This document shows, piece by piece, positions 3,257 through 47,175 of a stretch of 61,577 bases of DNA. The stretch spans positions 1-61,577 of the IMG/VR virus record IMGVR_UViG_3300043256_000467; one strand, 5' to 3'. Under the pieces are notes generated by a model. The model ran no database searches and was not told where the DNA came from. It saw only the letters and a list, made by a program, of their open reading frames with translations. Both the position numbers and the translations under genes were made by a program. The stretch comes from a virus. Positions within the stretch are counted from its first letter, which is position 1; each line of letters begins with the position of its first letter.

Positions 3257-3306
3257 ATCTATTCTCCTTCCTTTCTGCTAATCTCTATCCAATCATCTGT
3301 AATGAT

Positions 3307-3335: not shown

Positions 3336-3369
3336 GCCCTGTGCCTGTGACGGAGCTAGGATACAATTC

Positions 3370-7614: not shown

Positions 7615-7639
7615 CGCTATCTCTCCGGCCAGCCGTGCA

Positions 7640-18238: not shown

Positions 18239-19738
18239 TTACGCTGAGGCCTTCACAAAGAACCCGTCTGTCCCATCGTCTGCGAGACCCCCACCGAAGA
18301 CGACGTTCGGGTCCTCTTCACACACCGCCAAAGAGCTAACGTAATCGTTTGCAGGGAATGTAGTCGTGGCCTCTGGTAGCACGTACCACGAGTAGCCGCC
18401 GTCAATCGTCCGCAGGATGCGGCCAGCGGGGCCCACTATACTGTGAGCTAGGTAGCCCACAGTAGGAGTGGAGAACTTAATGTCGCGCACGACGCCCGCG
18501 CCGGATCCCGGAAACGCCTTCGCGGTCCAGGTTGCACCTGCGTCTCTGGTGTACCAGAGCGAGCCTTGGATATCGCCAACGAACCACTCTAGCTCACTCC
18601 GCATCCAGACGGCGGTCAGGTCAACAGCAGGGATCGGCCCGACGACCAACGTCCACGTCTCCCCACCATTCTCCGTCACGACGACTGCGTTACTCTCACC
18701 GACCGCGACGACGTTCCGCTCGTCGATACCATGCACGGCGGCCAGGTTCTGCGCGGTAACAACCCCTGCATCCTGCACGGTCACGGACGCTGTGGGGTCA
18801 GCGGTGAAGTAGATGTACCCACCATCACCGACGATGAAGGTATGCAGCGCTCCCGCACTCCAGATGGCGTTCGGGGCCCCAGCCGGACACTGGAACCCTA
18901 CTGCCATCTCGACCCACGCCTCTGTCCCAGCGAGGATGTTGGCAATGGTCGCGTAGTGCAACGAACAGGAAGCGTTCGATACGATGATAAGTCGTGTACC
19001 TACGCAATCCATTGCGCTGGGATCATCAGCGATCCCGAGTGTGGTGACGTTCGTTTCGCCAAGCGTCGTCCCGCCATCCTGCGAGAAGATCAGCTCGCCA
19101 GGGAGTCCAGGCGAACCGCCAGCCGTGAGCGTCAGGGCGAACACGACCTGGCACCCATCCGACGGGAGCCCGCACTCACCACACTGTCGCGAGTCGCAGA
19201 TCTCTACGTCGACGATCTCCTGGACGATCTCGGCCGCGCCCAACTCCGCTGGAAGTAGACGGCCGATCTCGTAATAGTTGAGGCCAGTAAGAGGGATGTT
19301 TTCGTTGATTACCGCGTCCTCGCCAGAGACGAGAGCGCCTAGCTCATCCGCCCCATAGCTTGTGAGGATAGCGCCTTCGAGAACGGCCACCTTATGCCAA
19401 CCGCCATTGAAGTCCGTGGGGTTGCGACACTCCCCCATGTGCACTTGCGCGTCAATCGGGCACCGCTTTCGGAAGAGCCGCAGCATCTCCGAAAGGTCCT
19501 GCGTGTACCGGACCTGAATGGGAAGCTGCGGGAGCCCCTGCGCTCCCCTAATCGTGTCTATGATGTCGAAGAGCCCGTACTGATCTTCACTCGGCGCCTC
19601 GATAGACGTGAGGTCGCCGCCGTCCCAACTCGGCGACTGCGCCCGCCCAAAGCCCTGGTAGACAGGAGCATTGGCGGGGCCGGCTCGATCTTCAATGGTA
19701 AACAGCCTAGAGAATGGTGTACGTTGCAGATTAGGCAA
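18239..19738 (-). CDS. Major tail tube protein with C-terminal beta-propeller
   Basis: 499 residues starting at TTG, with a very strong GGAGGTGA seven bases upstream. The first ~170 residues fit a tail tube protein (QLPIQVRYTQDLSEMLRLF). The rest consists of repeats with SQDGGTT, TENGGETWT, TRDAGATWT and TIDGGYSW, the BNR/Ycf48-like beta-propeller signature found in sialidases and photosystem assembly factors. Such a domain on the tail shaft would be exposed and could bind glycans. The gene lies directly upstream of the chaperone genes, as tail tube genes usually do. Confidence 0.78.
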   Translation of the reverse strand: MPNLQRTPFSRLFTIEDRAGPANAPVYQGFGRAQSPSWDGGDLTSIEAPSEDQYGLFDIIDTIRGAQGLPQLPIQVRYTQDLSEMLRLFRKRCPIDAQVHMGECRNPTDFNGGWHKVAVLEGAILTSYGADELGALVSGEDAVINENIPLTGLNYYEIGRLLPAELGAAEIVQEIVDVEICDSRQCGECGLPSDGCQVVFALTLTAGGSPGLPGELIFSQDGGTTLGETNVTTLGIADDPSAMDCVGTRLIIVSNASCSLHYATIANILAGTEAWVEMAVGFQCPAGAPNAIWSAGALHTFIVGDGGYIYFTADPTASVTVQDAGVVTAQNLAAVHGIDERNVVAVGESNAVVVTENGGETWTLVVGPIPAVDLTAVWMRSELEWFVGDIQGSLWYTRDAGATWTAKAFPGSGAGVVRDIKFSTPTVGYLAHSIVGPAGRILRTIDGGYSWYVLPEATTTFPANDYVSSLAVCEEDPNVVFGGGLADDGTDGFFVKASA

Positions 19739-19744
19739 GCTACG

Positions 19745-20059
19745 TCACCTCCCTTTCGCTCTGTGTGCCTCTGGCGCACCAAGATATACATCGATAATCC
19801 TGCCTACATCGACCTTAAGCGCACCTATCAGCGCTCCTCGAATCTCCTGACGTCTCCGCTGCGCGTCTCGCTGCGTCAGGATCCCCCGAGAATACAACTG
19901 ATTGTGTAGGCGCACCTCGATCTCAAGTGGAAGACCAAGCGACACGAGCGATGGGGGGCCGATTGGGATACCTATCCTCGCGTCCCCGTCTGGAGCATCG
20001 CTTGGCAACGAGACTTTCCAATACCTCCCCTCCTCATCCTCCCAGTGAGCTTCACGCAA
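19745..20059 (-). CDS. Putative head-tail joining / tail completion protein
   Basis: About 104 residues. No in-frame ATG lies after the upstream stop, so I place the start at a TTG (20059) preceded by GGAGGCCGTCC; the longer reading overlaps the previous gene by 180 bases and is low-complexity. The sequence has a helical stretch LTQRDAQRRRQEIRGALIGA. Assignment rests on position between connector and tail tube genes. Confidence 0.6.
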   Translation of the reverse strand: MREAHWEDEEGRYWKVSLPSDAPDGDARIGIPIGPPSLVSLGLPLEIEVRLHNQLYSRGILTQRDAQRRRQEIRGALIGALKVDVGRIIDVYLGAPEAHRAKGR

Positions 20060-21323
20060 GGACGGCCTCCGCAACTCCTCCCTCTTGGCGGACGCGCCTC
20101 CACGCGAAGATTGCTCCCCTCCGCGTCCCGAAGGGGTTGTTGAGGTCTTCTGGCGAGACTTGGAACGAGACGTTTTCGAGGTTGGCTGCAAGGTCCTGCC
20201 TCCAATGCTCAATCCATGCGTGTACATTATTACATTCACACACAGGTCTATCCAAGAGCGATGCCGCGTAGTATGCTACGATCTGCGCCCACTCTGGGTC
20301 CATCGTCCGAGTGGGACAAGCGAGGCTACGGTTTCTGAGCCCCGCTCGGTACCATAATCGAGTGAGGTCGGGCTGCCGGCCAAGTGCCCAAACTGCACTA
20401 TCGAATGACTCGTCGTCGGCATTCCATGCTCCTGGTCGGTACGACACGGCTCCAATTCTAGGGTCTTCCCTTTGCATCAAACAGCCAGTCTGCGCGGTGA
20501 AGGCGCACAGCTCACATCCCGTCCCGCAACCACAGGCGCTGAACGGCTCCCATAAAAAGGTCGCTTGCTGCTGAGGATCGTTATAGACACGATAGACGTC
20601 GACCGTGTTTAGGAAATTGCTATCTCCAGCCGGGCTGCCTTCTAGACCACGCAGATGGCTGTCGTCAGCTGGCGGCACTAGATCAAGCTGAAGTTCTGGC
20701 TTGACTGCCTGTTCGCGTCGGAACAGAATCGTTGCTGTCGTGCCAGTTATCGCAACGTTGATCGGCCGGATCTCCCACTGGTCCTCACCGCCTGTCTGCA
20801 CCATGGCATTGGAAACAGGTACATAGATACGCAATTCGCACGGATCTTGCCCTGCTGCGACTGTCACTGTTACCGTCGTCGTTTCCCAGTAGCCATCATT
20901 GTCGACGTCGCTGTATGCTATCGCCGCACCAGCCTCGATCAACGTCTGTGCACGCACACCCCCAGAGATAAAGTGCTTCCAGTTGGTGAAAACGATCTGT
21001 TGCATCCCTCGTATATCGAGTGATCTAAGATTGAACAGCTCCTTACGCCAAGGCCGTACTGTCGGACGCCACTCATCTACCTCCCAGGTCGGCAAGAGTC
21101 GGTAATGAAGCTGCCGCTCAATGTCTGCCTCTGCCTTTGCAACAGCGAGAGCAATATCCTCACGCCCCACGCGATTTACCGCTTGGTGCGCGAACTGCAT
21201 CCACGGCTGCTCGCAGATCGTTACCGGCGCAACGTAGAGTTGATTGAAGTGAAGCGGGCTGATCCCGATAATTCTGGCCCATTCGTCAAGGGGCAACTTA
21301 GTCAGTGTCTGCGCTCTAGCCAT
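20052..21323 (-). CDS. Putative head-tail connector protein
   Basis: 423 residues, in the slot between portal/capsid functions and the tail tube. The N-terminal part is helical (DIALAVAKAEADIERQLHY), followed by a beta-rich region and a Cys-rich patch CGCGTGCELCAF that may bind metal. The C-terminus (AQIVAYYAASLLDRPVC) resembles phage connector or neck proteins. Function inferred from position; no named family recognised with confidence. Confidence 0.65.
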   Translation of the reverse strand: MARAQTLTKLPLDEWARIIGISPLHFNQLYVAPVTICEQPWMQFAHQAVNRVGREDIALAVAKAEADIERQLHYRLLPTWEVDEWRPTVRPWRKELFNLRSLDIRGMQQIVFTNWKHFISGGVRAQTLIEAGAAIAYSDVDNDGYWETTTVTVTVAAGQDPCELRIYVPVSNAMVQTGGEDQWEIRPINVAITGTTATILFRREQAVKPELQLDLVPPADDSHLRGLEGSPAGDSNFLNTVDVYRVYNDPQQQATFLWEPFSACGCGTGCELCAFTAQTGCLMQREDPRIGAVSYRPGAWNADDESFDSAVWALGRQPDLTRLWYRAGLRNRSLACPTRTMDPEWAQIVAYYAASLLDRPVCECNNVHAWIEHWRQDLAANLENVSFQVSPEDLNNPFGTRRGAIFAWRRVRQEGGVAEAVLA

Positions 21324-21609
21324 CGCGCACCCACCTCTCTACTACAATCGCTCCAGCAGCGGCTGCAAGAACGATCACAGGCTCCGGCCGCCAGTACTCC
21401 CATACTCCCCAGAGCAACGCGGCTGTCCAGAGCGAAACGCACCAGATACAGGTAATGAGAACCGGCAGGAGTCCTCTTATCTCACCCTCCTTAGGCACAC
21501 CAATGAAGCGCCGCGCTCGCTCGAAGATGCCCCCAGGGCCTTCCTCGACTGCGATAAGTGAAGCGAGGCGCCAGGAGGCGAAAGCTACGAGGACAGCCTG
21601 TTCTATCAT
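21316..21609 (-). CDS. DUF1360-like membrane protein
   Basis: 97 residues with two hydrophobic segments (GLLPVLITCIWCVSLWTAAL and PVIVLAAAAGAIVVE) and the CIWCVSLW motif of DUF1360 proteins, known from Bacillus spores and many phages. Function unknown. Starts overlap the glycosyltransferase stop and its stop overlaps the connector start, so it is embedded in the structural operon. Confidence 0.72.
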   Translation of the reverse strand: MIEQAVLVAFASWRLASLIAVEEGPGGIFERARRFIGVPKEGEIRGLLPVLITCIWCVSLWTAALLWGVWEYWRPEPVIVLAAAAGAIVVERWVRDG

Positions 21610-24332
21610 CTCGGCGGCCCTTCCGCAACGAGCTCAGGTGTAGCAGCCACCTCTTGCGGGGCCACTTGCCTAAAGTCTCGCATATTAGCAAAGTGCGCAG
21701 CATCCTCCGCTCGCACGTACTTCTTGTTGTTCCGTCCAGCCCCGAAGGAATACGCTTGACCAGAAGGTGCTCTAAAGTGCCTGGTGGATTGCTCGCCTGT
21801 GTACTCGATAAGTACTGCCTCACCATTGGTGCTAACCTGTGCTGCGGGCGACTTCTTCGTCAACGCCTGGGCGACAGGTACCCGCTGCCTCTTCGTGCAT
21901 CCACTACATGCCATAAGCTCCTGCTCTCCTCCAAAGAACCGCTTCCACTTCCTTAAGATCCCCTGCTTGCTCTCCTCGTGCTCGGCGTAGTTCTCCTCCC
22001 GCCGGTAACCCGTACTCTTCCGATACACCCAGAGAGGGTGCGGTATACGAGTGCTGCACTCGCCGATGTTCGCCGCAGCAAGCTGGAAGTCCCAGTCTTC
22101 CCAAGCAGGGAGCTCCTCGTCGAAGCCACCCACCTCTTCCCATATCCGCTTAGGATAGAGTGCAGTGACGGCGTGGAGGCACCCTTTCGTTCGCAGATGA
22201 GTCATATATGTGCTGGGATCAAAGTCTTCAGCCTCGAAGATCTGCTGCTGCCCACCCTCCGCCTCGTCGTACCAGTCCGAGTAGACGATGCCTCCAACCT
22301 CACTCCACGCCTCAAACATCTCCTGCAAACACTGCGGCTGCAAATAGTCATCTGCGTCAAGGGGGAGGAAGAGCCGTGCTCGACTTCTGGCTATCCCCTT
22401 GTTCCTCGCAGCAGCTACACCAAGGCTCCTCCGTCCAGCATCGATGACCGTAACCCACGAGGGGAGTTGTCGAGGGAGCGTTTTGCCCGTATCGTTGACG
22501 ACAATGCACTCCCACTGCCGGAAAGTCTGCGCGTCAACACTGTCAACCGCATCCCAGATCAACTCCTCGTGCCCAGGACCCACCGGGATTACGACAGCGA
22601 TGATAGGAGGATCGCACGAGTGCATGGGGGGCTGTTCAGCAGCCACTGCGCCGGCCGGACGCACATCTGGAAACGTGCTCCAGGGGAACCATGCGCTCCA
22701 TTCCCGCTGCCCGACCTCTCGACTCATAGACCCTTCGCGGTTGCGGTAGATGAGCGTGTCGGCAGTTGATACCATCTTTGGCCTGAATCCGTAGCTCGCG
22801 GCTCTAGTCCAGAATTCTGCATCTTCCGCCGTACGGCAGCGAGCCCTATATCCACCCGTCCGCTCCCAGACTTCCCTGCGGAACATCGAGCAATACGGCA
22901 GCAAGTTACGCTGCACCTCCTGCCACTCATACTTGAATACCATAGGCCAGCCTGAGTGCCCGGGATTGACACCCTGCACGTTGTACTCTGTCGGCGTTTC
23001 CCCATCCTCGTCGACGAACAGGACGTTGCCGTAGGTGATATGTAGCCCGCGATCCTCGTCGAGCGCGTCAGCGAGCAGCCCAACAGTCCTAGGCGTGAGC
23101 ATATCGTCAGCATCGAGCGGCAAGATATATCGCCCCCGAGCCTGAGCAATGCCTGTATTCCTCGCCATTGCCAGGTACTGGTTCTTCTTGTTGTGGATGA
23201 CCCGAACGCGCTCGTCCTTCTTGGCATACTCATCGGCGATGGCTCCGCACCGGTCTGGCGAAGCGTCGTCGACAACGATGCACTCGAAGTCATCATCCTT
23301 CTGAGCGAGTACAGAGTCGAGGCAATCAGGGAGGTAGTCAGCTAAGTTGTACGCCGTGACTATAATGGATACTCGTGGGCCACTACGTCGCTCCTTCCAT
23401 TCAGAGACGACGCTCTGCAGAAAGGTGGCGTACATCTTCCCGACCTCTCCATATGAGAACGCTCCCGCAACTTCACGCGAGCGTCGGGAGAGTCTGTCGT
23501 GGTTCTCGAACGCCCAGCGGACGCCCTCGATCAAGCCATCATGGTCGCCAGGAGCCGCTAGCCAGGCAGTGTCTTTATGCTTGAGGAACTCCCGTTGACC
23601 TCCCCACGCCCACCCGACGATGGGCACCCCAGCAGCCATCGCTTCCAAAGTGCCAACGCCGAAAGTCTCTCGTGCGGTGCAGAGATAGATCCCCGCAGCC
23701 TGGACCAACTGCTTCGCTTCCACAAACGGGAGGCGCCCAGTGACCTGAAGATTAGGGGGGCTTTCTCCATGCAAGTCAAACGTCGTGACGAACTTGATAT
23801 CTGGCATCGCCTCCGCAAGCTTGACTATCGGTGTCGGGTCGCAGATCGGATCTGGTCGCGTCTTATTCCACAACACGTAACCTGAGCCGTACTCCGACCT
23901 GTCGCTAGCAGGCCACTCGGCAGCATCAATCCCGTGTGGGATGACGCCGACTTTCCTCATCGTGTGCCGGCGGATAGCCTGGGCGACCCAGAATGAGTGA
24001 GCGATGACTGCGTCAGAGTGCCGGATGCTCTCCATCACCTGCGCGTTCGCCTTGATCGCCCACGCAGGCCATTCGTATGGCCTACCAGTTGCAGGATCTA
24101 TATCCGCCCAATAGAGCCCATGGCAATCGAGGATGAGTGGGAGGTCCTTGTACTGCCTAAGATACTTCGACGCTCGCTCGATATGGACAATGACGGCATC
24201 CGCCTCCTCGTGCGAAGGCACGATCTCGATACCGTGCTCTGGCAGGACGCTGCGCTGCATCTCGACGACACGGCGAACGCCCCCATCACCATCATCCTCG
24301 CCCTTGAAGTCGGGGTAGATATATACCCGCAT
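21606..24332 (-). CDS. Three-domain glycosyltransferase (GT4 + GT2 + GT2)
   Basis: 908 residues. Residues 1-300 form a GT-B, GT4-type domain (IPHGIDAAEWP, and FGVGTLEAMAAGVPIVG with the EX7E-like patch). A GT-A domain follows (SIIVTAYNLADYLPDCLDSV, VVDDASPD, PLDADD), then a second GT-A domain (AVVIPVGPGHEEL, GVAAARNKGIARSRA, PLDADDYLQ). The last ~75 residues (AVLIEYTG, RHFRAPSGQAYSFG) resemble a small beta domain seen on other phage glycosyltransferases. Such an enzyme could add three successive sugars. It closes the glycan cassette and abuts connector genes, so virion proteins are likely acceptors (inference). Confidence 0.9.
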   Translation of the reverse strand: MRVYIYPDFKGEDDGDGGVRRVVEMQRSVLPEHGIEIVPSHEEADAVIVHIERASKYLRQYKDLPLILDCHGLYWADIDPATGRPYEWPAWAIKANAQVMESIRHSDAVIAHSFWVAQAIRRHTMRKVGVIPHGIDAAEWPASDRSEYGSGYVLWNKTRPDPICDPTPIVKLAEAMPDIKFVTTFDLHGESPPNLQVTGRLPFVEAKQLVQAAGIYLCTARETFGVGTLEAMAAGVPIVGWAWGGQREFLKHKDTAWLAAPGDHDGLIEGVRWAFENHDRLSRRSREVAGAFSYGEVGKMYATFLQSVVSEWKERRSGPRVSIIVTAYNLADYLPDCLDSVLAQKDDDFECIVVDDASPDRCGAIADEYAKKDERVRVIHNKKNQYLAMARNTGIAQARGRYILPLDADDMLTPRTVGLLADALDEDRGLHITYGNVLFVDEDGETPTEYNVQGVNPGHSGWPMVFKYEWQEVQRNLLPYCSMFRREVWERTGGYRARCRTAEDAEFWTRAASYGFRPKMVSTADTLIYRNREGSMSREVGQREWSAWFPWSTFPDVRPAGAVAAEQPPMHSCDPPIIAVVIPVGPGHEELIWDAVDSVDAQTFRQWECIVVNDTGKTLPRQLPSWVTVIDAGRRSLGVAAARNKGIARSRARLFLPLDADDYLQPQCLQEMFEAWSEVGGIVYSDWYDEAEGGQQQIFEAEDFDPSTYMTHLRTKGCLHAVTALYPKRIWEEVGGFDEELPAWEDWDFQLAAANIGECSTRIPHPLWVYRKSTGYRREENYAEHEESKQGILRKWKRFFGGEQELMACSGCTKRQRVPVAQALTKKSPAAQVSTNGEAVLIEYTGEQSTRHFRAPSGQAYSFGAGRNNKKYVRAEDAAHFANMRDFRQVAPQEVAATPELVAEGPPR

Positions 24333-24337
24333 AGTAA

Positions 24338-24967
24338 CTATCTCACTCCAACTCTATGCGTTCTGTGCGATGGAATGCAATTTGCTACGACGACAGCAAG
24401 CTGGGCTGCTACCCCTCCGGTAACTGTGCCAACACTCACCACGGTGCCCACACTCGGAGGACCATTTACTAGCATCAAGCGATAGGAAGTCCGCCCCTGT
24501 ACCTCAATCTTTCCTCGGCGCGGAGTAAACTCGACCTGTTCTCCAACATTGGGCAAGTCCCCGAAGGGGATTAGCCCATCTTCTCCAGGTTGTTCAGAAG
24601 TAGCGTAATCCTCAACCCCAACATCTCCAGGTACATCTCCCCAAGGAAACGCATCGCAAGCTAGCGCCATCGAAAGGTCAGGGGTGGGACTCTTCCCGTT
24701 GATGCGCAAAGTGAGAGATGCGCGGATGACCGATCTGATCTCCCCGATCTGCGAGGTATCAAAACTCAGCAGATATTGCTGAACGATGAATATACCAACA
24801 AACGGCACCGCTCGGATTGCCGTCGTTATAGGAGATGCCGCCGCAAAGAAGAAGGGAGGATACCATATACCACCTCCACCAGTCTCCGCATCAATATCTG
24901 CGTCGAACGTCAAGAGCCGAAACGTTGTCCCCCACGTTCCCACCAAGATGTCTTTTGGTACAATCAC
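24338..24967 (-). CDS. Putative virion protein, DNRLRE-like beta-sandwich
   Basis: 209 residues. The central part (YLLSFDTSQIGE..RSVIRASLTLRING) matches the strand pattern of DNRLRE/CBM-like beta-sandwich domains, found on surface proteins. It sits between glycosyltransferase genes. It could be a surface decoration that is itself glycosylated, or a glycan-binding protein. Family assignment is tentative. Confidence 0.5.
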   Translation of the reverse strand: MIVPKDILVGTWGTTFRLLTFDADIDAETGGGGIWYPPFFFAAASPITTAIRAVPFVGIFIVQQYLLSFDTSQIGEIRSVIRASLTLRINGKSPTPDLSMALACDAFPWGDVPGDVGVEDYATSEQPGEDGLIPFGDLPNVGEQVEFTPRRGKIEVQGRTSYRLMLVNGPPSVGTVVSVGTVTGGVAAQLAVVVANCIPSHRTHRVGVR

Positions 24968-25665
24968 GACACTACGGCCTCCAACTCATCTACTGGAGCT
25001 GGATAGGTTCCAATGTGAGCAAACAGGTCCCCCCAAGGATGAATAAGATCAAGCGGCCAGACTACTCCTCGTCTAGCTTCCGGCCGGTGAGCTATCTCAA
25101 ACTCGGTGGTGCCTGGATCAAGTCCCTCCTGCCAAGGGCCGACACGTCTCTGCCGTTCCGCTGTTTCCAGCCGGGGATGTCCCGCCCACACGTGTGGCTC
25201 AGGAGAGTCAGGATCAAGAAGGAGGTAATGATTGCCGGACATATCATGGCGGAACTCCCCCTTTAACGGCTGCGTGTAGCCGATGTATCCTAGGCGGAGG
25301 CAGTCGAACCAACCTTCCTGAAGCGCTGCTACCAGCGGGTCGAGGTCGAGCGGCTTGGTTAGGCTCCAGTCGTCTTCGAGAGGCAGGACGACCTCAGCCC
25401 AAGCATGAACTGTCTGGAGTGCTAAGTTGTAGTTCGCCCCGTAGCCCCTACGTTCTGAGTTCGTCACGGTATGAGTGAGTGGAGGATGCTCAGCGAGTAT
25501 CCCCGCTAGGTGCTCACGATATTCTGGCGGGCTCCCGTCGTCAGCGATATGCACAGCGAGGCTCCCAGAGTAATGGATATTCTGGAGCGCAGAGCGGAGC
25601 GTCTGCTCGGCGTACTCCTGGCGGTTGTAGGTCAGGAGTAAGATGCAGAGATTAGGCCAGTCCAT
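24964..25665 (-). CDS. GT2 glycosyltransferase
   Basis: 233 residues with a GT-A fold signature: CILLLTYNRQEYAEQTLRSA at the N-terminus, HIADDGSPPEY (nucleotide-binding aspartates), GYGANYNLALQ and the metal-binding LPLEDDW. It overlaps both neighbours by a few bases. Part of the glycan cassette; donor sugar and acceptor unknown. Confidence 0.82.
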   Translation of the reverse strand: MDWPNLCILLLTYNRQEYAEQTLRSALQNIHYSGSLAVHIADDGSPPEYREHLAGILAEHPPLTHTVTNSERRGYGANYNLALQTVHAWAEVVLPLEDDWSLTKPLDLDPLVAALQEGWFDCLRLGYIGYTQPLKGEFRHDMSGNHYLLLDPDSPEPHVWAGHPRLETAERQRRVGPWQEGLDPGTTEFEIAHRPEARRGVVWPLDLIHPWGDLFAHIGTYPAPVDELEAVVS

Positions 25666-25867
25666 CTACCTCTTCCCTGCTACGTACTCTTGCCAAGATC
25701 GCTGCCGCAAAAGCTCGTGCAGCCCCGGCCCCAGCAGCGATAACGTAAGCCTTCCAATCTTGTAGTACCACTTCCGGATCCAATTCCGCCACTAGTTGCA
25801 GCACAAACACCACGGCTGCGACACCGCCGAACCACAATAACTCTTCTAGTCTCTTGAAGTTGTACAT
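25652..25867 (-). CDS. Small two-TM holin-like protein
   Basis: 71 residues from the ATG at 25867, right after the upstream TAG. Two hydrophobic segments (LLWFGGVAAVVFVLQLVAEL and YVIAAGAGAARAFAAAILA) separated by a short acidic loop, then a charged tail RVRSREEVD: the layout of a small holin. No enzyme motif. The next gene upstream is also a small membrane protein. Confidence 0.55.
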   Translation of the reverse strand: MYNFKRLEELLWFGGVAAVVFVLQLVAELDPEVVLQDWKAYVIAAGAGAARAFAAAILARVRSREEVDGLA

Positions 25868-25868
25868 C

Positions 25869-26135
25869 CTACCCTCCCCCACTCCGCTGGACGACGGGAC
25901 AGTTCCCGATTTTCGCGTCCATCCGTATCAGGGTCTTGTGCATCTCTTGCACTTCTTTGTTCCCTTCGTCCTGCAGCTTTATCATCTGTTGAAACTGTAG
26001 TTCCAGCGTGGCGGCGTTAGGATTTCTACCGTTCCTGCCGTTCCGTCGGAAGCTCAGCCCGACGAAGCCTAGCAGCCCCACGATTATGGTGGCGGCTGTG
26101 CCTAGAAGTCCTGCGAGAACTGGTACTGGCTCCAC
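25869..26135 (-). CDS. Small single-TM membrane protein
   Basis: 88 residues: an N-terminal membrane helix (VLAGLLGTAATIIVGLLGFV), a basic patch RRNGRNGRN, then an amphipathic helix LELQFQQMIKLQDEGNKEVQ. The topology resembles BhlA/XhlA-type holin accessory proteins. Together with the next gene it may form a lysis pair, although endolysin genes lie elsewhere. Confidence 0.55.
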   Translation of the reverse strand: MEPVPVLAGLLGTAATIIVGLLGFVGLSFRRNGRNGRNPNAATLELQFQQMIKLQDEGNKEVQEMHKTLIRMDAKIGNCPVVQRSGGG

Positions 26136-26145
26136 TCCTATCTCC

Positions 26146-26979
26146 CTAGTTGTCCACCACTAACAGCGTGAAGTCGCAGGATACCTCAACAACCCCACCG
26201 TCTCCAAAAGCCTCGAACCATATATCGGACTTTTCATTAATCAGCTTCCCAGTCCCTGGTGGATCGTAGTGGAACTCGCCAGAGACGCCGTCAAAGAACA
26301 GCCTGATCCTTTTAGAACTCACCGGCGCTGAGACGACATCTATATTCTCTCTAGTGAACATCCTGATATTGGCCGATTTGTTTGAGTCCACACGCATCTC
26401 TGCCGCAAGCAAATAGGCCGTCTTCCCTACAGGCACTGTCCAGCCACCGAATTGCGTCTGTCCTTCCCCTGCGGCGATCTCGATCAAGTCTGTCCCACCA
26501 CCACTATTCTCTACTACGATGTCGTCTGTATTAGCCGCTCCGTAAGTACCCGCAGACGAGACCCATGCTCTATGAATCCGCCAAAAAGATATGGTAGTAG
26601 CCAAACTCGCAGCAGCTCCCGCTGTGGCCACTGCTTCGCTGACTTCGTTGAAGTCACTGTCGATGCCCTGGACGGTTACTTCCCTAGCCCCCGCGCCAGC
26701 CGCAGTGTCAGCGGCGTTCCCTCCCGCTTTGATCCTGACTGCGGTGGGGGCCGACAGCGGCCACGAGGTAAGTCCGAGCAGGCTGACAAACTCCCACGAG
26801 CCGTTCGGCACAGCGTCGTTCCTGCCGAACTTATTTACTACGGCGAGCCCAGCCAGGTTGCCTTCCTGCACTTCGATTAGAAAGTCTCGCGCCGACGTTG
26901 GAGATTGAGTCGCGGCAAGAAGTGCTTGGGTTAGGTTTGCCAGTCTGTTGAGGCTTAATTCTGCCGAAGGCGCTACCAT
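26146..26979 (-). CDS. Putative virion protein (KFGRN-type)
   Basis: 277 residues. The sequence DFLIEVQEGNLAGLAVVNKF with KFGRN, IKAGGNAADTAAGAGAREVT and VQGIDSDFNEVSE is the pattern of a widespread phage structural protein, found especially in environmental podo- and siphophages. The exact virion location of that family is unclear. It lies within the glycan cassette, so it could be a glycosylated surface protein (inference). Confidence 0.7.
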   Translation of the reverse strand: MVAPSAELSLNRLANLTQALLAATQSPTSARDFLIEVQEGNLAGLAVVNKFGRNDAVPNGSWEFVSLLGLTSWPLSAPTAVRIKAGGNAADTAAGAGAREVTVQGIDSDFNEVSEAVATAGAAASLATTISFWRIHRAWVSSAGTYGAANTDDIVVENSGGGTDLIEIAAGEGQTQFGGWTVPVGKTAYLLAAEMRVDSNKSANIRMFTRENIDVVSAPVSSKRIRLFFDGVSGEFHYDPPGTGKLINEKSDIWFEAFGDGGVVEVSCDFTLLVVDN

Positions 26980-27021
26980 TACTACACGTCCTTTACGATT
27001 AGATCAAACTCCGCACTCACG

Positions 27022-27999
27022 TCACTGATCCTTCTTGATCTTCCAGACCGTTCGGCTCGCTGGCCTACCTGTCACAGGTAGCGTCACGAGGGCCTTAGCC
27101 TTACCAAATCGCCCCAACAGCTCTGCTACATCGTCGTCGGTGGCTAGGAAATCCGGCCCAGGACCATCGCCAGCAAGTTGTGTCTCGAAGTAGAGAACAC
27201 CAGCCTCCTTGATAATCTTCTCCAGGAGAGCCTCGGCCTCTTCTCTACTCCTCTGCTGGATAATGTAGGGCCATACCGACAGCAGTAGTACGATGGGGAA
27301 GTCCCAGGACTTCCAATCGACGAGGTTCCTCCTCTCGAATATGCAGCCGGCGCTACCCCAGTACACCTGGGCCTGCTCAGCGATTGGGCTGTCCTCTATA
27401 CCTACTGCAGTTGCTCCCTCAGCCTGCGCCATCGCACAGAAGTACCCCGCACCAGCACCTGCATCCAGAAGCCGCAGGCCTTTGAGACGGTCCTGACTCC
27501 AACCTAGATCAGCATGGATGGCTAGCCATCGACGTACTAGGCGAGAGCCATCAGGGGTGAAGTCAGCGACGCTCTTCCACAGATAGAAGGCATCGGGCTT
27601 CTTCCGCTTGTCACTTCCCGTCTCCTGTTCCAAGCGGGACTCGCGCCAATCCAGTACCACAGGGTAGTCATTCCGCACCAGGATATTGGGCGAGGTTAGA
27701 TCGCCGTGGTGGATGCCTCTGTTATTCAGGGTGAGGAGGAGCCAGATGCAGTTCCGGTAGAACCGTTCCTCGTCCTGCACGGGCGACTCTGGAGCATCGA
27801 GCCGCGCCGCATCCCCCAGATCCTCCATGTCCAGAGTAGAATTATCGTAACCATAGAGACGAGGCACGAGAGGAGTATCATGTAGCAGGCCGAGAAAGCG
27901 AGCTTGGTTAGCCAACTGCTTCTCGCCCGCAGCGTTGGTAGCCGTCTCGATGATGTGTCCCCCCTGCCGTTGTCGTTCTATCTGAGGAGCGTCAGTCAT
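27022..27999 (-). CDS. Kinase-like / SAM methyltransferase fusion
   Basis: 325 residues from the ATG at 27999 (ATGA overlap with the upstream stop). The first half has a protein-kinase-fold catalytic loop, HHGDLTSPNIL (D100, N105), and a VLDWRES metal motif (D117), as in lipopolysaccharide and aminoglycoside kinases. No clear glycine loop is visible; the N-lobe is short. The second half is a class I methyltransferase with LLDAGAGAGYF (from 178). E. coli WbdD, which ends O9 polysaccharide chains by phosphorylation and methylation, has both activities but in the opposite order. A glycan-capping role is plausible here. Confidence 0.8.
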   Translation of the reverse strand: MTDAPQIERQRQGGHIIETATNAAGEKQLANQARFLGLLHDTPLVPRLYGYDNSTLDMEDLGDAARLDAPESPVQDEERFYRNCIWLLLTLNNRGIHHGDLTSPNILVRNDYPVVLDWRESRLEQETGSDKRKKPDAFYLWKSVADFTPDGSRLVRRWLAIHADLGWSQDRLKGLRLLDAGAGAGYFCAMAQAEGATAVGIEDSPIAEQAQVYWGSAGCIFERRNLVDWKSWDFPIVLLLSVWPYIIQQRSREEAEALLEKIIKEAGVLYFETQLAGDGPGPDFLATDDDVAELLGRFGKAKALVTLPVTGRPASRTVWKIKKDQ

Positions 28000-28724
28000 G
28001 TCCCCTCCCATCCTGCCGGCTTATCGCCCAGCCGTACCGTCCAAATGTGGAGCCAAGGGTCATGGATAGCCTGAAGGGCTTCTGGGCCATCTGGGCTCTC
28101 TACGTACCGCTCAGCATAGATACGCTCCCACTCGTAGCCCGAGACCCCTTCAGGGAAGACTCCGTAGTGCTCTACGAACCTCCGATGGTAAAGGAAAGGT
28201 CTGCCGTTCCACGTGTAGCCTTGCCGCTCAAACCGGATAGCTCTTACGCTCTCCGTCTCCACCCCGAACTCTATCACCTGCCCGCCTCGCTGCTCTGGCC
28301 GAGGAGGCATCAGAGAGATCGCGCCGATGCCCTTCTGCCCATTCACCGGCTCGCCGAACTCCGTCAGGATACGAGCCCAGGAGGTAAGGTTCAGAGGGTC
28401 GCGTAGCGAGTAGCTGTCGTCAGCGTAGATGAACAGGGGACTGACCTCCAGGGCCTGCCGTGCGCCCTCATTCAGAGCACCCCCCAGTCCCTTACCTTGA
28501 GTGTGACTGATAGAGGTAGGCCAGGGGCTGAATTGGAGGAGCTCCTCAGTGCACTCGAAGCCACGCACGGTATCGTCCGCAATATGCAGACGCAGCTCGC
28601 CGGCGTAGTTGAGGTAGCGCCCCCACGACATGATGGTCTGCTTCGCCACTTGGAGTCTGCCGAAGCCTCCCTCTATGGGCGGTATGTAGAGTGTCATTAC
28701 CATCGTCACGGGCGGGAGTATCAT
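27996..28724 (-). CDS. GT-A family glycosyltransferase
   Basis: 242 residues. GELRLHIADDTVRGF, GKGLGGALNEGARQAL and the LFIYADDSY metal-binding motif identify a GT-A fold glycosyltransferase of the GT2-like type; the C-terminal WERIYAERY and DPWLHIW segments fit an acceptor domain. Flanked by another GT2 and the kinase-methyltransferase. Confidence 0.72.
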   Translation of the reverse strand: MILPPVTMVMTLYIPPIEGGFGRLQVAKQTIMSWGRYLNYAGELRLHIADDTVRGFECTEELLQFSPWPTSISHTQGKGLGGALNEGARQALEVSPLFIYADDSYSLRDPLNLTSWARILTEFGEPVNGQKGIGAISLMPPRPEQRGGQVIEFGVETESVRAIRFERQGYTWNGRPFLYHRRFVEHYGVFPEGVSGYEWERIYAERYVESPDGPEALQAIHDPWLHIWTVRLGDKPAGWEGT

Positions 28725-28728
28725 CTCC

Positions 28729-29442
28729 CTATCTCACCCTCCCCCACTTCTCTGGAGACGACCATCGACGAATAGCATATTTGCGTAACTGACGTGTCAG
28801 ACTCCTACCGCTAAATTCTCGTCGCAGTTCGCTGCGCACTCTCATCGAGTGGGCTGTCTCGGTCCCGTCGTGGATACGAATGTGGTACAGGGGAGGACCC
28901 GCCACGGGAATCACTTTGTCTTGGAGGCCAAGTCTGTCACACAATTGGAGGAAGATAAAGTCGGGGGCGATCACAGCCTCTACGGGAAAGCCCCCTGTTT
29001 CCCGCCAGAAGCCTTTCGTGACCATAGCGTAGTTGCAGGGAGTCTCGAATCTCCCGTTCACCGATACCCCGCCTAGCTCGCCCCCATATTCGGCCACTAC
29101 CCAATAGAACCCGTCCATCCGGGCGTTGGCCTCATAGGAGGCAAGACATTCCTCAAGACAAGTAGGCTCAAGCCAGTCGTCGTCGCAGAGGAGGAATACC
29201 AAGTCGTTAGCAGCCAACGAGACGCCGCAATTGAACGCTGTCCCTACACCAAGCCTCCAAGGAGCATGCCATACCGTGACACCCTCACCCATCAGCGGGA
29301 GCCCCACCATATCATCAATGAGGAGAATTTCATCGGCATGACGCGTCTGCATCCGCACACTAGCTAGACATTCTTCAAGGTACGGTTGGTCTCGGGGCAC
29401 AGGGCCGACAGGTATAACGACTGTTATCTTCAGATCATTCAT
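28729..29442 (-). CDS. GT2 glycosyltransferase
   Basis: 237 residues. ITVVIPVGPVPRDQPYLEEC with SVRMQTR at the N-terminus, LLIDDMVG, GVGTAFNCGVSLAANDLV and LLCDDDW give a complete GT2 catalytic domain. The C-terminus is basic (SLTRQLRKYAIRRWSS). The start overlaps the upstream methyltransferase stop by eight bases. Confidence 0.85.
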   Translation of the reverse strand: MNDLKITVVIPVGPVPRDQPYLEECLASVRMQTRHADEILLIDDMVGLPLMGEGVTVWHAPWRLGVGTAFNCGVSLAANDLVFLLCDDDWLEPTCLEECLASYEANARMDGFYWVVAEYGGELGGVSVNGRFETPCNYAMVTKGFWRETGGFPVEAVIAPDFIFLQLCDRLGLQDKVIPVAGPPLYHIRIHDGTETAHSMRVRSELRREFSGRSLTRQLRKYAIRRWSSPEKWGRVR

Positions 29443-29974
29443 ACGCCACTACCTGCGTCAGCAACGACCAACCGTACCGCTCTATCCCCTTCAGGAGCCC
29501 CTGCTCAATGACTGGGTCGACGGCCCTCTTGACCCCGAGGGCGATGCACTCGGCTGGCGGAGGGGCTGGGGAGTTGCCCGCATCATAGTCGTGGAACCAG
29601 AAGAATCCCTCTAGCCGTACCTTGGGCAGCCAGGCAGCTATCTCTTGAACCGTATCTTCGTACTCGTGCGAGGTGTCGAGCAGCACGAGAGGCAAGCTAG
29701 CATCTTCGAACCGCTCTGGGGCTTCAAGGGAGAGCATCTCCAGTCCCTCCCACCGGTCGAGGAACCCTGCTTGCTCCAAGGCAGCGCGGGTATGGGCTAG
29801 CATGTCTGGGTTCCTGTCAACCGACACTACCTTGACTGTCGGATTCGAGGATAGCACAGCCAAGGCGGTTCCCCCGTAACCCGCACCAAGGTCTACAACG
29901 GTAGAACCTTCCGGTAGGTCGGTAGCGACCCTACGGATCAGGTCGGCGTCCTCGTCAGTTATCAGTCCTGGCAT
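29435..29974 (-). CDS. Class I SAM-dependent methyltransferase
   Basis: 179 residues. Motif I VVDLGAGYGG and an acidic end to strand 2 (VVSVDRNPDM) define a Rossmann methyltransferase; LVLLDTSHEYEDTVQEI resembles the Methyltransf_24 class that acts on sugars and other small substrates. Lies between a glycosyltransferase and a second methyltransferase, suggesting O-methylation of a glycan. Confidence 0.8.
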   Translation of the reverse strand: MPGLITDEDADLIRRVATDLPEGSTVVDLGAGYGGTALAVLSSNPTVKVVSVDRNPDMLAHTRAALEQAGFLDRWEGLEMLSLEAPERFEDASLPLVLLDTSHEYEDTVQEIAAWLPKVRLEGFFWFHDYDAGNSPAPPPAECIALGVKRAVDPVIEQGLLKGIERYGWSLLTQVVAYE

Positions 29975-30465
29975 GACTGTTTCCTAGCTGTAGCGAAGAC
30001 CCCAACAGGGGTGGTCGCCGATTTACCTCCCTGACCTTCGACTTCGATGTCCTTGAAGCCCGCCCGCTGGAGCACATAGTAGAACCCTTCAGGAGTCACC
30101 CTCCAGTAGTCATGAGGATGCTCGTGGATCGCGAACATAAAGACCCACGTCCCGATAAACAGGCCACCTGGTTTGAGCGCATCGTACATCATCTCGAGCG
30201 CTCGCCAGGGCTCTTCTATATGTTCCAGCGTCTCCGTCGTTACGACGGTATTGAACTCGCCCCGCAACTCCTCATTGACTCCCAGAATATCCGCCACCAG
30301 ATCGACCCCATCACCCTCCCTCATATCGAGACCAACGTAGCCCTCTTGGGGGAACAGGTCTCGGATAGAGCCGTTGACGTTCAAGGCCCCAACCTCCAGC
30401 ACGGGCGCCTCTGGTTGGTGGTTCTCCACCATCCGCCCTACCCAATCCATTACTTCCGGGCGCAT
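29962..30465 (-). CDS. Class I SAM-dependent methyltransferase (type 11)
   Basis: 167 residues from the ATG at 30465, preceded by GGGAGGCAGGCCTC. VLEVGALNVNGS is motif I, GLDMREG binds the cofactor ribose, and VVTTETLEHIEEP with LKPGGLF is typical of the Methyltransf_11 family. HDYWRVTPEGF near the end is common in glycan methyltransferases. It follows the sugar dehydratase gene. Confidence 0.82.
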   Translation of the reverse strand: MRPEVMDWVGRMVENHQPEAPVLEVGALNVNGSIRDLFPQEGYVGLDMREGDGVDLVADILGVNEELRGEFNTVVTTETLEHIEEPWRALEMMYDALKPGGLFIGTWVFMFAIHEHPHDYWRVTPEGFYYVLQRAGFKDIEVEGQGGKSATTPVGVFATARKQSCQD

Positions 30466-30478
30466 GAGGCCTGCCTCC

Positions 30479-31540
30479 CTATACCCCCTCCGCATCTTTG
30501 AGCATAGCAGCCATCTCCTGCATCGTGATCCAGTGAGCTGGATTGTGACTGCGGTACGTCCAGCCCTCTTTCCCCTCCGGTAGCAACGAGGCTCCGGCAG
30601 ATCCGCCTACTCCCTTACCCGTTGGGTGCCGAGCAACGAAGTAGTCCCCTTTATCAATTGTCTGCGGAGATTCTTGGAAGTTAACCAGCTCCTCGTGCAA
30701 CTTTTCCCCCGGCCTGATTCCGATGATGTCGATTGGAGCCTCTCCAGCGATAAGTCGGGCGAGGTCCATGATCTTCATGGCCCCACACTTTGGAACGAAC
30801 GATGCCCCAGGGTACTGCTTAGCATTCGCTACAGCGAGGAGGATCGCGTCGACTGCCTCGTCGGGGGAGAGCCAGAACCGCGTCATGCGCTCGTCTGTCA
30901 CAGACAATCGCTGCTTCGTCTTCAGTTGCTGGCGAAAGACCGGCACGATGGAGCCAGTGCTTCCGACAACGTTGCCATACCGCACAGTGACGCAGTTTAT
31001 CCTCTCCGACCAGCGGCAAGCCTCTGCATACAGGCGCTCCATGAGGGCCTTCGTCATGCCGTAGACATTCGCCGGCAGCACCGCCTTGTCTGTCGATATG
31101 CCAACGACCGTAGGGACGTGGCACCAGGCAGCAGCCCGAACGACGTTCCTAGAGCCGTCAAGATTGATATGGACAGCCTCCCAGACATTGCGCTCAGCCT
31201 CAGGGATAAACTTGACGGCACCTAGATGGATGACTAGATCGTGCCCTGGCATGAGTGTCGTTAAGGTGTGGTGATCTCTGACGCTCCCAAGATAGCACGT
31301 GACTGATTTGCCGTACTTCTCCCTTAGCTGCCACTGCTTCTCTTCATCGCGCGAGAACACGGTGAAAGTGCAAGGCCAGTCCTCGCGCTGGGCTCGTCTG
31401 ATGATTGCTCTTCCAAGGAATCCCGCTCCGCCCGTGAGGAAGACTTTACCTGATAGCTGCTGCCGCGCCCCATCCTCCACAATATACTCCTGACTGTATC
31501 TGATGGCGGTGGCCCAGCTCAACCGGACCACCGCCACCAT
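30479..31540 (-). CDS. UDP-GlcNAc 4,6-dehydratase-like (CapD/PseB type) SDR enzyme
   Basis: 353 residues. TGGAGFLG (36-43) binds NAD(P). VIHLGAVKFIPEAERN, GISTDKAVLP (T150-D151-K152) and Y160xxxK164 match inverting NDP-sugar 4,6-dehydratases such as PseB, FlaA1 and CapD, which convert UDP-GlcNAc to a 4-keto-6-deoxy sugar. IRPGEKLHEELV is another family hallmark. It is the first gene of the glycan cassette, immediately after the capsid gene, and could supply a deoxysugar donor. Confidence 0.88.
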   Translation of the reverse strand: MVAVVRLSWATAIRYSQEYIVEDGARQQLSGKVFLTGGAGFLGRAIIRRAQREDWPCTFTVFSRDEEKQWQLREKYGKSVTCYLGSVRDHHTLTTLMPGHDLVIHLGAVKFIPEAERNVWEAVHINLDGSRNVVRAAAWCHVPTVVGISTDKAVLPANVYGMTKALMERLYAEACRWSERINCVTVRYGNVVGSTGSIVPVFRQQLKTKQRLSVTDERMTRFWLSPDEAVDAILLAVANAKQYPGASFVPKCGAMKIMDLARLIAGEAPIDIIGIRPGEKLHEELVNFQESPQTIDKGDYFVARHPTGKGVGGSAGASLLPEGKEGWTYRSHNPAHWITMQEMAAMLKDAEGV

Positions 31541-31572: not shown

Positions 31573-33021
31573 CTAGGCGGAAGCCCATGCGGTGTAGTAG
31601 CTAGGGCCTGGGCGACTCGTGCGACCACCATCCTCGAAGTACGGGTCGTCCGGGAACATATCCCTAACGTGCTGGGCCGGGCAATAGTTCACGTCTTCGA
31701 GACGAGCTGCCAACCACGGGGTCCGCAATACCAGCCGAGGTTCGATCTTCGACTCCCATTGGAAGCACTCACGCGTCTGCACTGGCCAGGTGATGAACGC
31801 GCCCTCGACCCTTCCAAGTACCATGTTCCCAAGCGCATCCGTGATAGCTGGGTTACTGTACTGGAAGTACTCAAGGAACGTCACCGAACGACCACCGACA
31901 ACGCTCATCGGGATAAGGAAGATGTCGGTGCCGAAGCACCCCGCAGGCACATTCGCGTTCTCTGCATCGGTATCTTCGGAGATGCCATCGTCGACGATGA
32001 CTGGGATCCGCTCGCCGTCGATGAGGAGGTACCTGCCGGTCCTCATCGCGTCCCGGAACTCGGTCTGAGCAGTCCCCTCGATGGTCACACGCTCGTTGCC
32101 CTGCGTCTGGCACCTGTACGTCAGGTACGAACAGGGCCATACAGCCGTCAACTCGTAGAAGAGCTGCGGGCGCATGGCGAAGACCCAGCGTACGGGCATC
32201 ACGCCCGTCCTGGTCGCCCTGTCCTTGACCTGATAGTACATATCAGTCAGGGCAGCGACGATATTGGCAGCGCCTGGGGCAACGTCGATGCGCACGTTAC
32301 CAAAACTCCGGACGTAGGAGTCGATGGCAGGGCACGACTGATTGTTCTGAGCATCGACGTGTCCAGTCGTGACTAGCGTCTCGAAACCAGCAAACTCTCG
32401 ATAGCCCCCACCGACGTTGTTGTTGTTGGGGGTGCCGACCCAGAGCTGCCGCGAGAGCAGCCGCCAGATGGCCACGTTGCGCTCCCAAAAACGCTTCGAG
32501 ATCTCATTCGTCAGGAGGTCCGCGGGCATCGGATCGACCCCCCCAGGACCAGAGAAGATGCCGGCGTCCTCCAGCGGAGACCCGACGAGCGTGAGGTCCA
32601 TCGGGTCAGCGCGGTCTACACGCTGTCCGATGCGGTCCAGGTCGATCTCTTGCGTCTGTCGCTTATACCGACCGAAAGGCGCGGTCAAGAGGCACGACTT
32701 CAGGAGACCGGCGATGGGGCCGGCGTCGCACACCTCATCCGGCTCCGTCCCGGACTCGTCGGTGACGCCAGTCAGTGTTTGGTAGGTTGGATTCGTATAC
32801 AGACTCGGGGTGGCCGGGAGCTGCCCCAGGATGGTTTGAGCCCCCATGATGGTATGGAACGCTACGGGGTCGACGCCTGGAAAGGACAGGATACCGCCTG
32901 GGCCGTGCGCGTAGCCAATAGTAGCGCCAGCGTTACCCGGCGCATCGTGCTTATACCCAGGGCGGAGGCGCGTCTCAAGCTCCTTAACCAAAGCGTCAAG
33001 AACAGATGGTTGTGTCGTCAC
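31573..33021 (-). CDS. Major capsid protein
   Basis: 482 residues from a GTG at 33021, nine bases after AAAGGAG. It follows the protease/scaffold gene, the normal position of the major capsid protein. Features include FWERNVAIWRLLSRQLWVG, PVRWVFAMRPQLFYELTAVW and a long segment AMRTGRYLLIDGERIPVIVD typical of HK97-fold capsid proteins of larger siphophages. The fold is inferred from synteny and these segments, not from a full domain match. Confidence 0.82.
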   Translation of the reverse strand: MTTQPSVLDALVKELETRLRPGYKHDAPGNAGATIGYAHGPGGILSFPGVDPVAFHTIMGAQTILGQLPATPSLYTNPTYQTLTGVTDESGTEPDEVCDAGPIAGLLKSCLLTAPFGRYKRQTQEIDLDRIGQRVDRADPMDLTLVGSPLEDAGIFSGPGGVDPMPADLLTNEISKRFWERNVAIWRLLSRQLWVGTPNNNNVGGGYREFAGFETLVTTGHVDAQNNQSCPAIDSYVRSFGNVRIDVAPGAANIVAALTDMYYQVKDRATRTGVMPVRWVFAMRPQLFYELTAVWPCSYLTYRCQTQGNERVTIEGTAQTEFRDAMRTGRYLLIDGERIPVIVDDGISEDTDAENANVPAGCFGTDIFLIPMSVVGGRSVTFLEYFQYSNPAITDALGNMVLGRVEGAFITWPVQTRECFQWESKIEPRLVLRTPWLAARLEDVNYCPAQHVRDMFPDDPYFEDGGRTSRPGPSYYTAWASA

Positions 33022-33088
33022 GTGGCACAACTCCTTTCTTACGCTGCGAACGGGAGCTCATTGTATACACCGACTAGCACCCTAGGTT

Positions 33089-45033: not shown

Positions 45034-46641
45034 CTAGAGCAAGAGATACAGACACTTCCTCGCCATCATCGAGGTTGCCACTGCAAGGTCTACCTTCCGC
45101 TCAGGTGCCTTCTTGACGATCCGGATCTTCCTGTCCTCCTTGGGGTCTAGCTTAGCAGCCGAGTTCTCGATGTGCTCTCGCAGGTAAGGATTACCGTCGT
45201 GGACGATGCGTCTATTAATGATAAGGTCACGGAGCTCTGAGTCAGCGATGAGCCGCTCCGCCTGCTGAGAGAAGGGATAGACGGGTGCAAGCCCTTCCTT
45301 GCGGAACGCCTGCATCATCGACTCTAGTTGGTATGGGTCGTAGGTCACGCAGACGACGTTGTGCGCTCCGACGGTAATGCCAGAGGCACAGGCATCGCAC
45401 GAGTCACGCTTATCGTCCCTGGCGTGCCCCGACGGACACCCACCAAGACACAGGAAGCGGAGGAACGACTCAGGCTCCGAGAGGTCGATCTGGCCGCCTC
45501 TTGGTGGCTTCCACTCCCTCACCCCGCGTATGACCACGGTGTTCTCGTGGCGCTCAGCGTCTGGATGCCGGCTACCAGATACGATGCCGAAGGAGTCGTT
45601 GGTCACAGCAGCGTCAAGGGCGACGACGATGGGCGTCTGGTCTACTCTGAGGTTGCCCGCCCCGTCGTACTCTACGAGCGCCGGCAAGTCCTCCTTACAG
45701 CGGTCCCACAGCTCTATCGGTACGAATGACATCTCGTCGTCTCCTGCTAGCGCGTCCTCCCAAGTCTCCGGTGCGAAATGCTTGAGCGCTTGGCGTGTGA
45801 GGGAGCCCTCCTGTATCGCATACCACTCAAGCGTGCGGCCTGGACGCTCAGCCCAAGGGACGAACAGAGGATATAGTGGCGATATCCCAGCCTGTGCCAT
45901 CTTCCAGAGCTTGGCTGCGAAGACGTGCTCGCCTTTGCCTCGGGTGACGACGTGACAAGAGCCCCCAGGCGCGACCGTCGAGTAAACTGCCGACCAGGTC
46001 TGCTCAGCGAACTGCATGATCGCCAGCTCGTCGACGTGAGCGTGCTGGCAGGTGTCGTCGACTGAGACGTTGGGGCCGGCAGCATAGGACACGACCGCTC
46101 GTAGGTCGTCTATGCCCAGGGAGAACTTGAGGCTGTGCGCCGACCTCCCCCCAGCCTCGTCAACGAGGAAGGTGGGGCGGAGCCACTGGGGGAGGTGGGA
46201 TAGGCCAAACTCGACGTAGCCAAGGAGCCTCTGAGAAGCCCTATCGTCACGAGAGAAGAGGTGGACACGGGCGTTGGGCGGGCCGCAGAGCGCGATCCAC
46301 CCATCGTAGGCACACCCAAGCTCTGTGAACCCCAGCTTACCAGCCTTGAGCGCGTAGAGGAATGGGTGCTCGATAGCTGCCTTCGCAAACTCCTCTTGCC
46401 CCGACCATAGTCCTCCTGGATGTTCGTCACCGTGTTCCGGGCAAGGACCGAACGTAAGCACCTCGCCGGTCTCTCGAGAGACGAAGTGCCAGTAGGAGAG
46501 GAAGGTCAGGAAGGACTGCTCGACTGATCGACGCTTGCGGAGTAGCTGTACTTGCTCAAGGAGCAGCCCCCGCGACCCAGCATCGAGAGCCTCAACCCGC
46601 TGGGTCTTGGTCTTTGTCTTGGTGTCAACCTTCGCCACCAT
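45034..46641 (-). CDS. terL: Terminase large subunit
   Basis: 535 residues from ATG 46641 after GGAGGAATTGACG. The ATPase has the relaxed Walker A KAGKLGFTELG seen in many terminases and Walker B HAHVDELAIM. The RNase H-like nuclease has IVVALDAAVTNDSFGIVSG (first aspartate), VTYDPYQLESMM and a final DLAVATSMMARKC. Inside the nuclease lies a four-cysteine insert (CLGGCPSGH to CDACASG) that could bind zinc. It packages DNA into the prohead through the portal. The small subunit gene is 2.8 kb upstream rather than adjacent. Confidence 0.9.
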   Translation of the reverse strand: MVAKVDTKTKTKTQRVEALDAGSRGLLLEQVQLLRKRRSVEQSFLTFLSYWHFVSRETGEVLTFGPCPEHGDEHPGGLWSGQEEFAKAAIEHPFLYALKAGKLGFTELGCAYDGWIALCGPPNARVHLFSRDDRASQRLLGYVEFGLSHLPQWLRPTFLVDEAGGRSAHSLKFSLGIDDLRAVVSYAAGPNVSVDDTCQHAHVDELAIMQFAEQTWSAVYSTVAPGGSCHVVTRGKGEHVFAAKLWKMAQAGISPLYPLFVPWAERPGRTLEWYAIQEGSLTRQALKHFAPETWEDALAGDDEMSFVPIELWDRCKEDLPALVEYDGAGNLRVDQTPIVVALDAAVTNDSFGIVSGSRHPDAERHENTVVIRGVREWKPPRGGQIDLSEPESFLRFLCLGGCPSGHARDDKRDSCDACASGITVGAHNVVCVTYDPYQLESMMQAFRKEGLAPVYPFSQQAERLIADSELRDLIINRRIVHDGNPYLREHIENSAAKLDPKEDRKIRIVKKAPERKVDLAVATSMMARKCLYLLL

Positions 46642-46643
46642 CG

Positions 46644-47159: not shown

Positions 47160-47175
47160 CGCTTTACCCTCCTCC

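Follow-up and report, generated by a model that had tools for sequence, protein, structure and literature searches.

The 61,577-nucleotide (nt) viral DNA analyzed here (IMG/VR virus record IMGVR_UViG_3300043256_000467, positions 1 to 61,577; hereafter the window, numbered G000 beside related contigs with G and L numbers) carries at 21606-31540 a tightly packed block of sugar-enzyme genes, beginning 32 nt past the stop codon of the presumed major capsid gene (31573-33030; 485 amino acids [aa]). All window features described below are on the minus strand. The block encodes a PseB/FlaA1-like UDP-N-acetylglucosamine (UDP-GlcNAc) dehydratase, two methyltransferases, six glycosyltransferase (GT) domains and a kinase-methyltransferase. 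It is probably a late-expressed glycan-assembly locus by which the phage decorates its own virion, with a virion protein as the likely acceptor. Virion glycosylation is favored because the genes are in a late position and a fixed slot, the enzymes are soluble and the principal GT is fused to a separable domain of the late operon. Gene order in related contigs suggests that phages bearing this principal enzyme, a triple GT, constitute a large uncultured lineage with a swappable set of sugar enzymes behind the presumed capsid gene.

Enzymes of the block and their predicted roles

Consecutive genes of the block are spaced by -17 to +42 nt, and no terminator-like site was seen on the coding strand in the gap between the capsid and dehydratase genes. 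An earlier note on this DNA had named genes of the block and counted at least six GT domains. All the genes it named lie where it placed them on the minus strand, Pfam bears out their types, and the domain count holds; for one GT gene (27996-28724) type and count depend on relatives, including one in the contig G001.

The first gene of the block (30479-31540; 353 aa) encodes a UDP-GlcNAc 4,6-dehydratase of the PseB/FlaA1/CapD type (Pfam Polysacc_synt_2, E 2.6e-71). Its best PDB match is FlaA1 (2gn4, E 1.6e-56), and the catalytic stretch of short-chain dehydrogenases/reductases, STDKA..P.N.YG.TK, is present and aligned. The enzyme would convert UDP-GlcNAc to a 6-deoxy amino-sugar precursor. It resembles PseB and FlaA1 in family and catalytic stretch but is phage-borne, and the window has no PseC-type aminotransferase, whereas DegT-family aminotransferases are found in 22 related loci.

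Two S-adenosylmethionine-dependent methyltransferases follow, one (29962-30495) matching Methyltransf_23 (E 1.1e-7) with a 36% relative in G001, the other (29435-29974) matching Methyltransf_24 (E 4.4e-12) with relatives in 19 loci; both might methylate the glycan. Three single-domain GTs would extend its core. Two are GT2 enzymes by Pfam (28729-29442, E 4.7e-13; 24964-25665, E 1.8e-11), the latter 50-63% identical to its counterparts in near relatives. The third (27996-28724) is GT-A-like and has no Pfam match; it is counted as a GT because its relatives support this, namely a G001 GT (51% identity) and homologues in the cassettes of about 25 loci.

The kinase-methyltransferase fusion (27022-28011; 329 aa) has its kinase domain (APH, RIO-like, E 2.8e-7) first, followed by a Methyltransf_23 domain (Pfam). 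All nine relatives retain the kinase residues H102, D104, N109 and D121. The AlphaFold model has a predicted local distance difference test score (pLDDT) of 90.6, and its best fold match in PDB is WbdD (E 8e-9 over about 180 columns). WbdD of Escherichia coli O9a modifies the terminus of the O9a polymannose, first by phosphorylation and then by methylation (PMC3482155). As in WbdD, kinase and methyltransferase are in one polypeptide encoded beside GTs. The domain order of WbdD is, however, methyltransferase-kinase-coiled coil, whereas the window protein has its kinase first, lacks the long C-terminal coiled coil and has a small kinase lobe in which the beta-3 lysine is not evident. The window protein may work like WbdD, possibly adding a methyl-phosphate cap to the glycan, and is not classed as a WbdD.

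The last and longest gene (21606-24332) encodes the triple GT, in which Pfam finds GT2 (two stretches) and Glycos_transf_1/GT4 in the order GT4-GT2-GT2, followed by a C-terminal domain. It is the nearly universal gene of the cassette. Thirty relatives with 32-57% identity retain all three active sites (E222/E230, D407/D409, E503/D504, D659/D661 and E745/D746): the GT4 domain keeps its EX7E motif, with Q at the second position in two of the 30, and both GT2 domains keep DxD and ED. A shared core of at most three sugars might be the product of the triple GT.

The C-terminal domain and a putative internal translation start

The last 100 or so residues of the triple GT (21606-21914) start with a Cys-containing stretch and include a small domain predicted to be rich in beta structure; this C-terminal domain is possibly also made alone from an internal ATG at 21914-21912. 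This domain is separable: in four contigs (L105, L118, L121 and L090) it is a separate open reading frame (ORF) between the GT and the DUF1360 gene or connector, and in L104 it is present as an ORF without any GT cassette. In the window, a Shine-Dalgarno-like stretch, ttggaggagagcaggagctt (21915-21934), lies upstream of the internal ATG.

The internal start is conserved as a sequence feature. In the first 30 fused genes, a search accepting only ATG, GTG and TTG found an in-frame start codon at the junction in every case (26 ATG, 2 GTG and 2 TTG). Mean anti-Shine-Dalgarno energy at the junction is -8.9 kcal/mol, compared with -2.2 kcal/mol at 492 other in-frame ATGs (p 6.6e-19), and is also stronger than under synonymous recoding of the same peptides (-6.3, p 2e-9); these p-values overstate the case, since related sequences are not independent. 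Among held-out genes, junction energies of -6 or below are found in 13 of 17 in a first set and in 25 of 37 in a second, the latter against 4% of matched control windows. Start codon and Shine-Dalgarno stretch persist from 57% to about 32% identity although the surrounding peptide changes.

Because the 3' end of the triple-GT gene has its own start codon and Shine-Dalgarno stretch, two products would be expected from it. The sequence thus suggests that this gene yields a free small protein as well as the same protein carrying GTs. A fuller version is offered tentatively and is rather less likely to be right than wrong: initiation at the internal start would give a small protein of the virion or of its assembly, and translation from the main start would add three GT domains to that protein. 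The glycosyltransferase would then be built into, or docked on, the particle being glycosylated, and the small protein would serve as its anchor or as the acceptor. Tethered in this way, the GT would be delivered to the particle during its assembly. As for the acceptor in general, the neighboring capsid protein and the small protein from the 3' end of the triple-GT gene are the candidates. If the two-product arrangement is correct, a fused GT with an internal start is a concrete, testable route by which a glycosyltransferase finds the virus particle.

A variable slot in an uncultured lineage

With the triple GT as the query, 34 loci were retrieved; a deeper alignment yielded 128 relatives, of which 80 were kept. 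Their common gene map is capsid, variable cassette, triple GT, DUF1360 membrane protein, connector, beta-propeller protein and tape measure. The DUF1360 gene (window 21316-21609; PF07098, E 1.1e-5; phrog_781; homologue in 35 loci) almost always adjoins the triple GT, and the presumed head-tail connector (20052-21323; homologues at the same place in 34 loci) closes the slot. With proteins 32-57% identical, dozens of contigs share this arrangement, which is therefore far beyond chance.

Because these first loci had been found via the triple GT itself, a second sample was drawn by capsid alignment alone (139 relatives, best 80 kept). Among 27 distinct contigs in this sample with a complete capsid-to-neck interval, 26 have the triple GT: 25 by script, plus L087, whose triple GT overlaps the capsid ORF. 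The sole exception is L104, which has no cassette. In 39 of the 49 incomplete intervals a cassette gene is already visible; of the remaining ten, the contig G002 is one, and the other nine stop within 2.3 kb. The capsid alignment was built mostly from GT-bearing contigs, so that some bias to that clade remains in these counts. Counted by locus, the triple GT is present in 41 of 44 intervals by script and also in L088 and L047, in which it overlaps the next ORF. Individual loci show further variants: L106 keeps a single GT domain together with the C-terminal domain, the GT of L046 is fragmented, and in L031 the dehydratase adjoins the triple GT.

The other genes of the slot were typed by Pfam of cluster representatives; the locus counts given here are ORF similarity clusters, which are threshold-dependent and include some duplicate contigs. 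The dehydratase is present in 24 and the kinase-methyltransferase in 8 of the 44 intervals. Besides the DegT/DnrJ aminotransferases mentioned above, the slot contains RmlD-like reductases (13 loci), GHMP kinases (8 loci), GT10-like proteins (7 loci, below the Pfam cut-off), sulfotransferases (5 and 3 loci), formyltransferases, PIG-L deacetylase-like proteins and hexapeptide acyltransferases (3 loci each), and further methyltransferases including the FkbM type. By its predicted genes, the slot looks like a surface-glycan serotype locus for variable, modified glycans.

The layout of the window is shared by G001 (65.9 kb), one of two metagenomic contigs considered here (with G002) that hold 63% relatives of the capsid protein. 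In the same slot, G001 encodes a dehydratase, two GTs, two methyltransferases, a kinase-methyltransferase, a triple GT and the DUF1360 protein; the connector follows the DUF1360 gene after an insertion. This insertion (G001 46500-54000) includes, by eye, a transposase-like ORF at 51198-52091.

The capsid protein has no relatives among 50,697 records of isolate phages, in which two other capsids of the lineage and the kinase-methyltransferase are likewise without matches and the triple GT has partial GT matches only. A search of bacterial genomes by two peptide patterns only did not find the kinase-methyltransferase, and the portal used as a query gave no relatives. Assignment of a host was dropped, as the metagenome-assembled genome bins that contain capsid matches belong to unrelated phyla. 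Two of these matches have equal values, and the phage contigs in question, L130 and L135 of about 83 kb, are in bins labelled Proteobacteria and Gemmatimonadetes, a binning conflict.

Probable virion glycosylation, its alternatives and known systems

Several observations weigh against virion glycosylation or leave parts of it less secure. In G002, presumed virion proteins replace the cassette, which is absent from the 6.3 kb behind the capsid gene; the cassette is therefore not essential to all members of the lineage. The labels of capsid and connector are based on synteny and conservation: neither has a convincing match in Pfam, PHROGs or PDB. The presumed capsid protein is the most conserved of the lineage (59-70% identity in near relatives), and its label stays positional because it found no support in PDB or PHROGs, either as a single sequence or as a family profile. 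The fold search with the C-terminal domain gave weak matches, mostly to uncharacterised phage proteins, so that no virion fold is claimed for it. Capping by the window's kinase copy is uncertain because this copy has no obvious beta-3 lysine. Finally, the DUF1360 membrane protein beside the triple GT leaves room for a membrane-linked role.

This last point is also consistent with a different target, the host surface. During infection the enzymes might alter the O-antigen or capsule polysaccharide on the host surface, so as to block superinfection, for example, or to release progeny. Bacterial loci for surface polysaccharides typically contain PseB/CapD dehydratases, GT2 and GT4 enzymes and kinase-methyltransferases of the WbdD kind, and GtrB-like O-antigen conversion proteins are among the PHROGs matches of the triple GT. 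This explanation is nevertheless unlikely. In those relatives whose genes were mapped, the cassette is part of the late structural block, and the triple GT bears a late-operon domain that other members encode separately. In addition, none of 485 cassette proteins of at least 120 aa has four hydrophobic segments in a simple, crude hydropathy scan; hence no flippase-, polymerase- or GtrA-like protein was seen.

Temperate-phage loci for O-antigen conversion, of the gtrA-gtrB-gtr type, depend on a membrane flippase and membrane GTs. The window cassette shares phage-borne GTs with these loci but shows neither of those membrane components in the scan, and O-antigen conversion was rejected as the main explanation.

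Alternatively, only the triple GT with its C-terminal domain might act on the virion, the other genes being passengers that act on host metabolites or polysaccharide. The near-universal triple GT beside an otherwise variable gene set, as in the dehydratase and kinase-methyltransferase counts given above, is consistent with this. The variable genes nevertheless keep to the same slot, mostly overlap one another in the window and make up coherent sugar pathways, which makes such a division quite improbable.

It is very improbable that the GTs glycosylate hypermodified bases of phage DNA: modified DNA can be glycosylated by virus GTs (Pyle et al. 2024, in passages of PMC12619734 that cite it) and the window encodes two DNA methyltransferases, but the late structural position argues against this target, the sugar synthesis, sulfation and formylation genes of relatives fit a protein glycan better, and a thymidylate synthase-type gene (PF00303) is absent from both cassette carriers G000 and G001 (contigs that may be incomplete), whereas G002, cassette-less behind its capsid gene, has one. 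The lack of a thymidylate synthase-like base hydroxymethylase in G000 and G001 weakens this explanation, and DNA hypermodification was rejected as the main one. G002 also has the locus number L003.

The earlier note had proposed that the phage glycosylates its own virion rather than DNA or host O-antigen. The choice among these targets gains from the fixed slot, the lack of flippase, polymerase and thymidylate synthase-type genes within the scopes given above, and the GT-domain fusion; the protein that would be modified can be named as a candidate only. The note's further remark, that no described bacteriophage system with the full set was known to it, was too strong. In mycobacteriophages such as Che8, GTs encoded by the phage place glycans on proteins of the capsid and tail tube (Freeman et al. 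2023, according to passages of PMC11256854 and PMC12619734).

Like Che8, the window phage encodes its own GTs, with six GT domains. In Che8, however, the gene for the head-to-tail adaptor comes immediately after that for the capsid, and the three annotated GTs (genes 108-110) are about 50 kb away at the right end. In a search limited to six proteins, Che8 gp108 matched GT2 profiles weakly (E about 1e-9 to 1e-7), and gp109 and gp110 matched none of the GT profiles tried. The window cassette adds sugar synthesis, methylation and a kinase-methyltransferase, and its main GT is fused to a separable domain. Three things are new here: the breadth of the set, which joins six GT domains with sugar synthesis, methylation and a kinase-methyltransferase; its fixed place; and the fusion of a GT to a separable late-operon domain.

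Chloroviruses and mimiviruses encode their own nucleotide-sugar enzymes, GTs and methyltransferases, with gene content differing between relatives (PMC4691112). The window cassette is likened to these by gene content, as it has the gene types of autonomous virion glycosylation and a variable composition; those viruses are, however, eukaryotic giant viruses, whereas the window genes form a single block behind a presumed capsid gene. If virion glycosylation is correct, a phage-made, variable, methylated virion glycan would be a standing trait of a large uncultured lineage rather than a mycobacteriophage oddity, and particles would vary in a serotype-like manner, which would bear on adsorption, predation, immune recognition and phage ecology.

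Other genes of the block and the window

Four further ORFs are located within the block. The product of 26146-26979, a putative virion protein of the phrog_8198 family (E 4.5e-31), has a 62% relative in the structural operon of L005 and is, within the slot, specific to this phage. That of 24338-24967, another putative virion protein, appears beta-rich by eye; it is an orphan with no Pfam or PHROGs family match and a single 30% relative at the same place in L045. Two small ORFs, as read from their sequences, have an N-terminal hydrophobic stretch (25869-26135) and hydrophobic stretches (25652-25882), respectively; neither had been listed in the earlier note, and neither has relatives among the loci. 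These membrane-like ORFs (25652-26135) could be a lysis or holin insertion.

Upstream of the block, the gene order is terminase, portal/minor head, presumed protease-scaffold and presumed capsid. The presumed portal and minor-head domains are in a single 948-aa protein in the window (35713-38559), whereas G001 splits them into two genes about 9 kb apart (18419-20827 and 29954-31411). Between connector and tape measure, the product of 18239-19738 has BNR/YCF48-like beta-propeller repeats, is conserved in 30 loci and is possibly a tail protein with a fused beta-propeller. The region 2282-7707 includes replication-type genes (DUF932, SNF2 helicase, a weak sliding-clamp-like match and a HerA-like ATPase). 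The two DNA methyltransferases, of the N6/N4 type (48165-49427) and the Dam type (50463-51173), probably serve anti-restriction.

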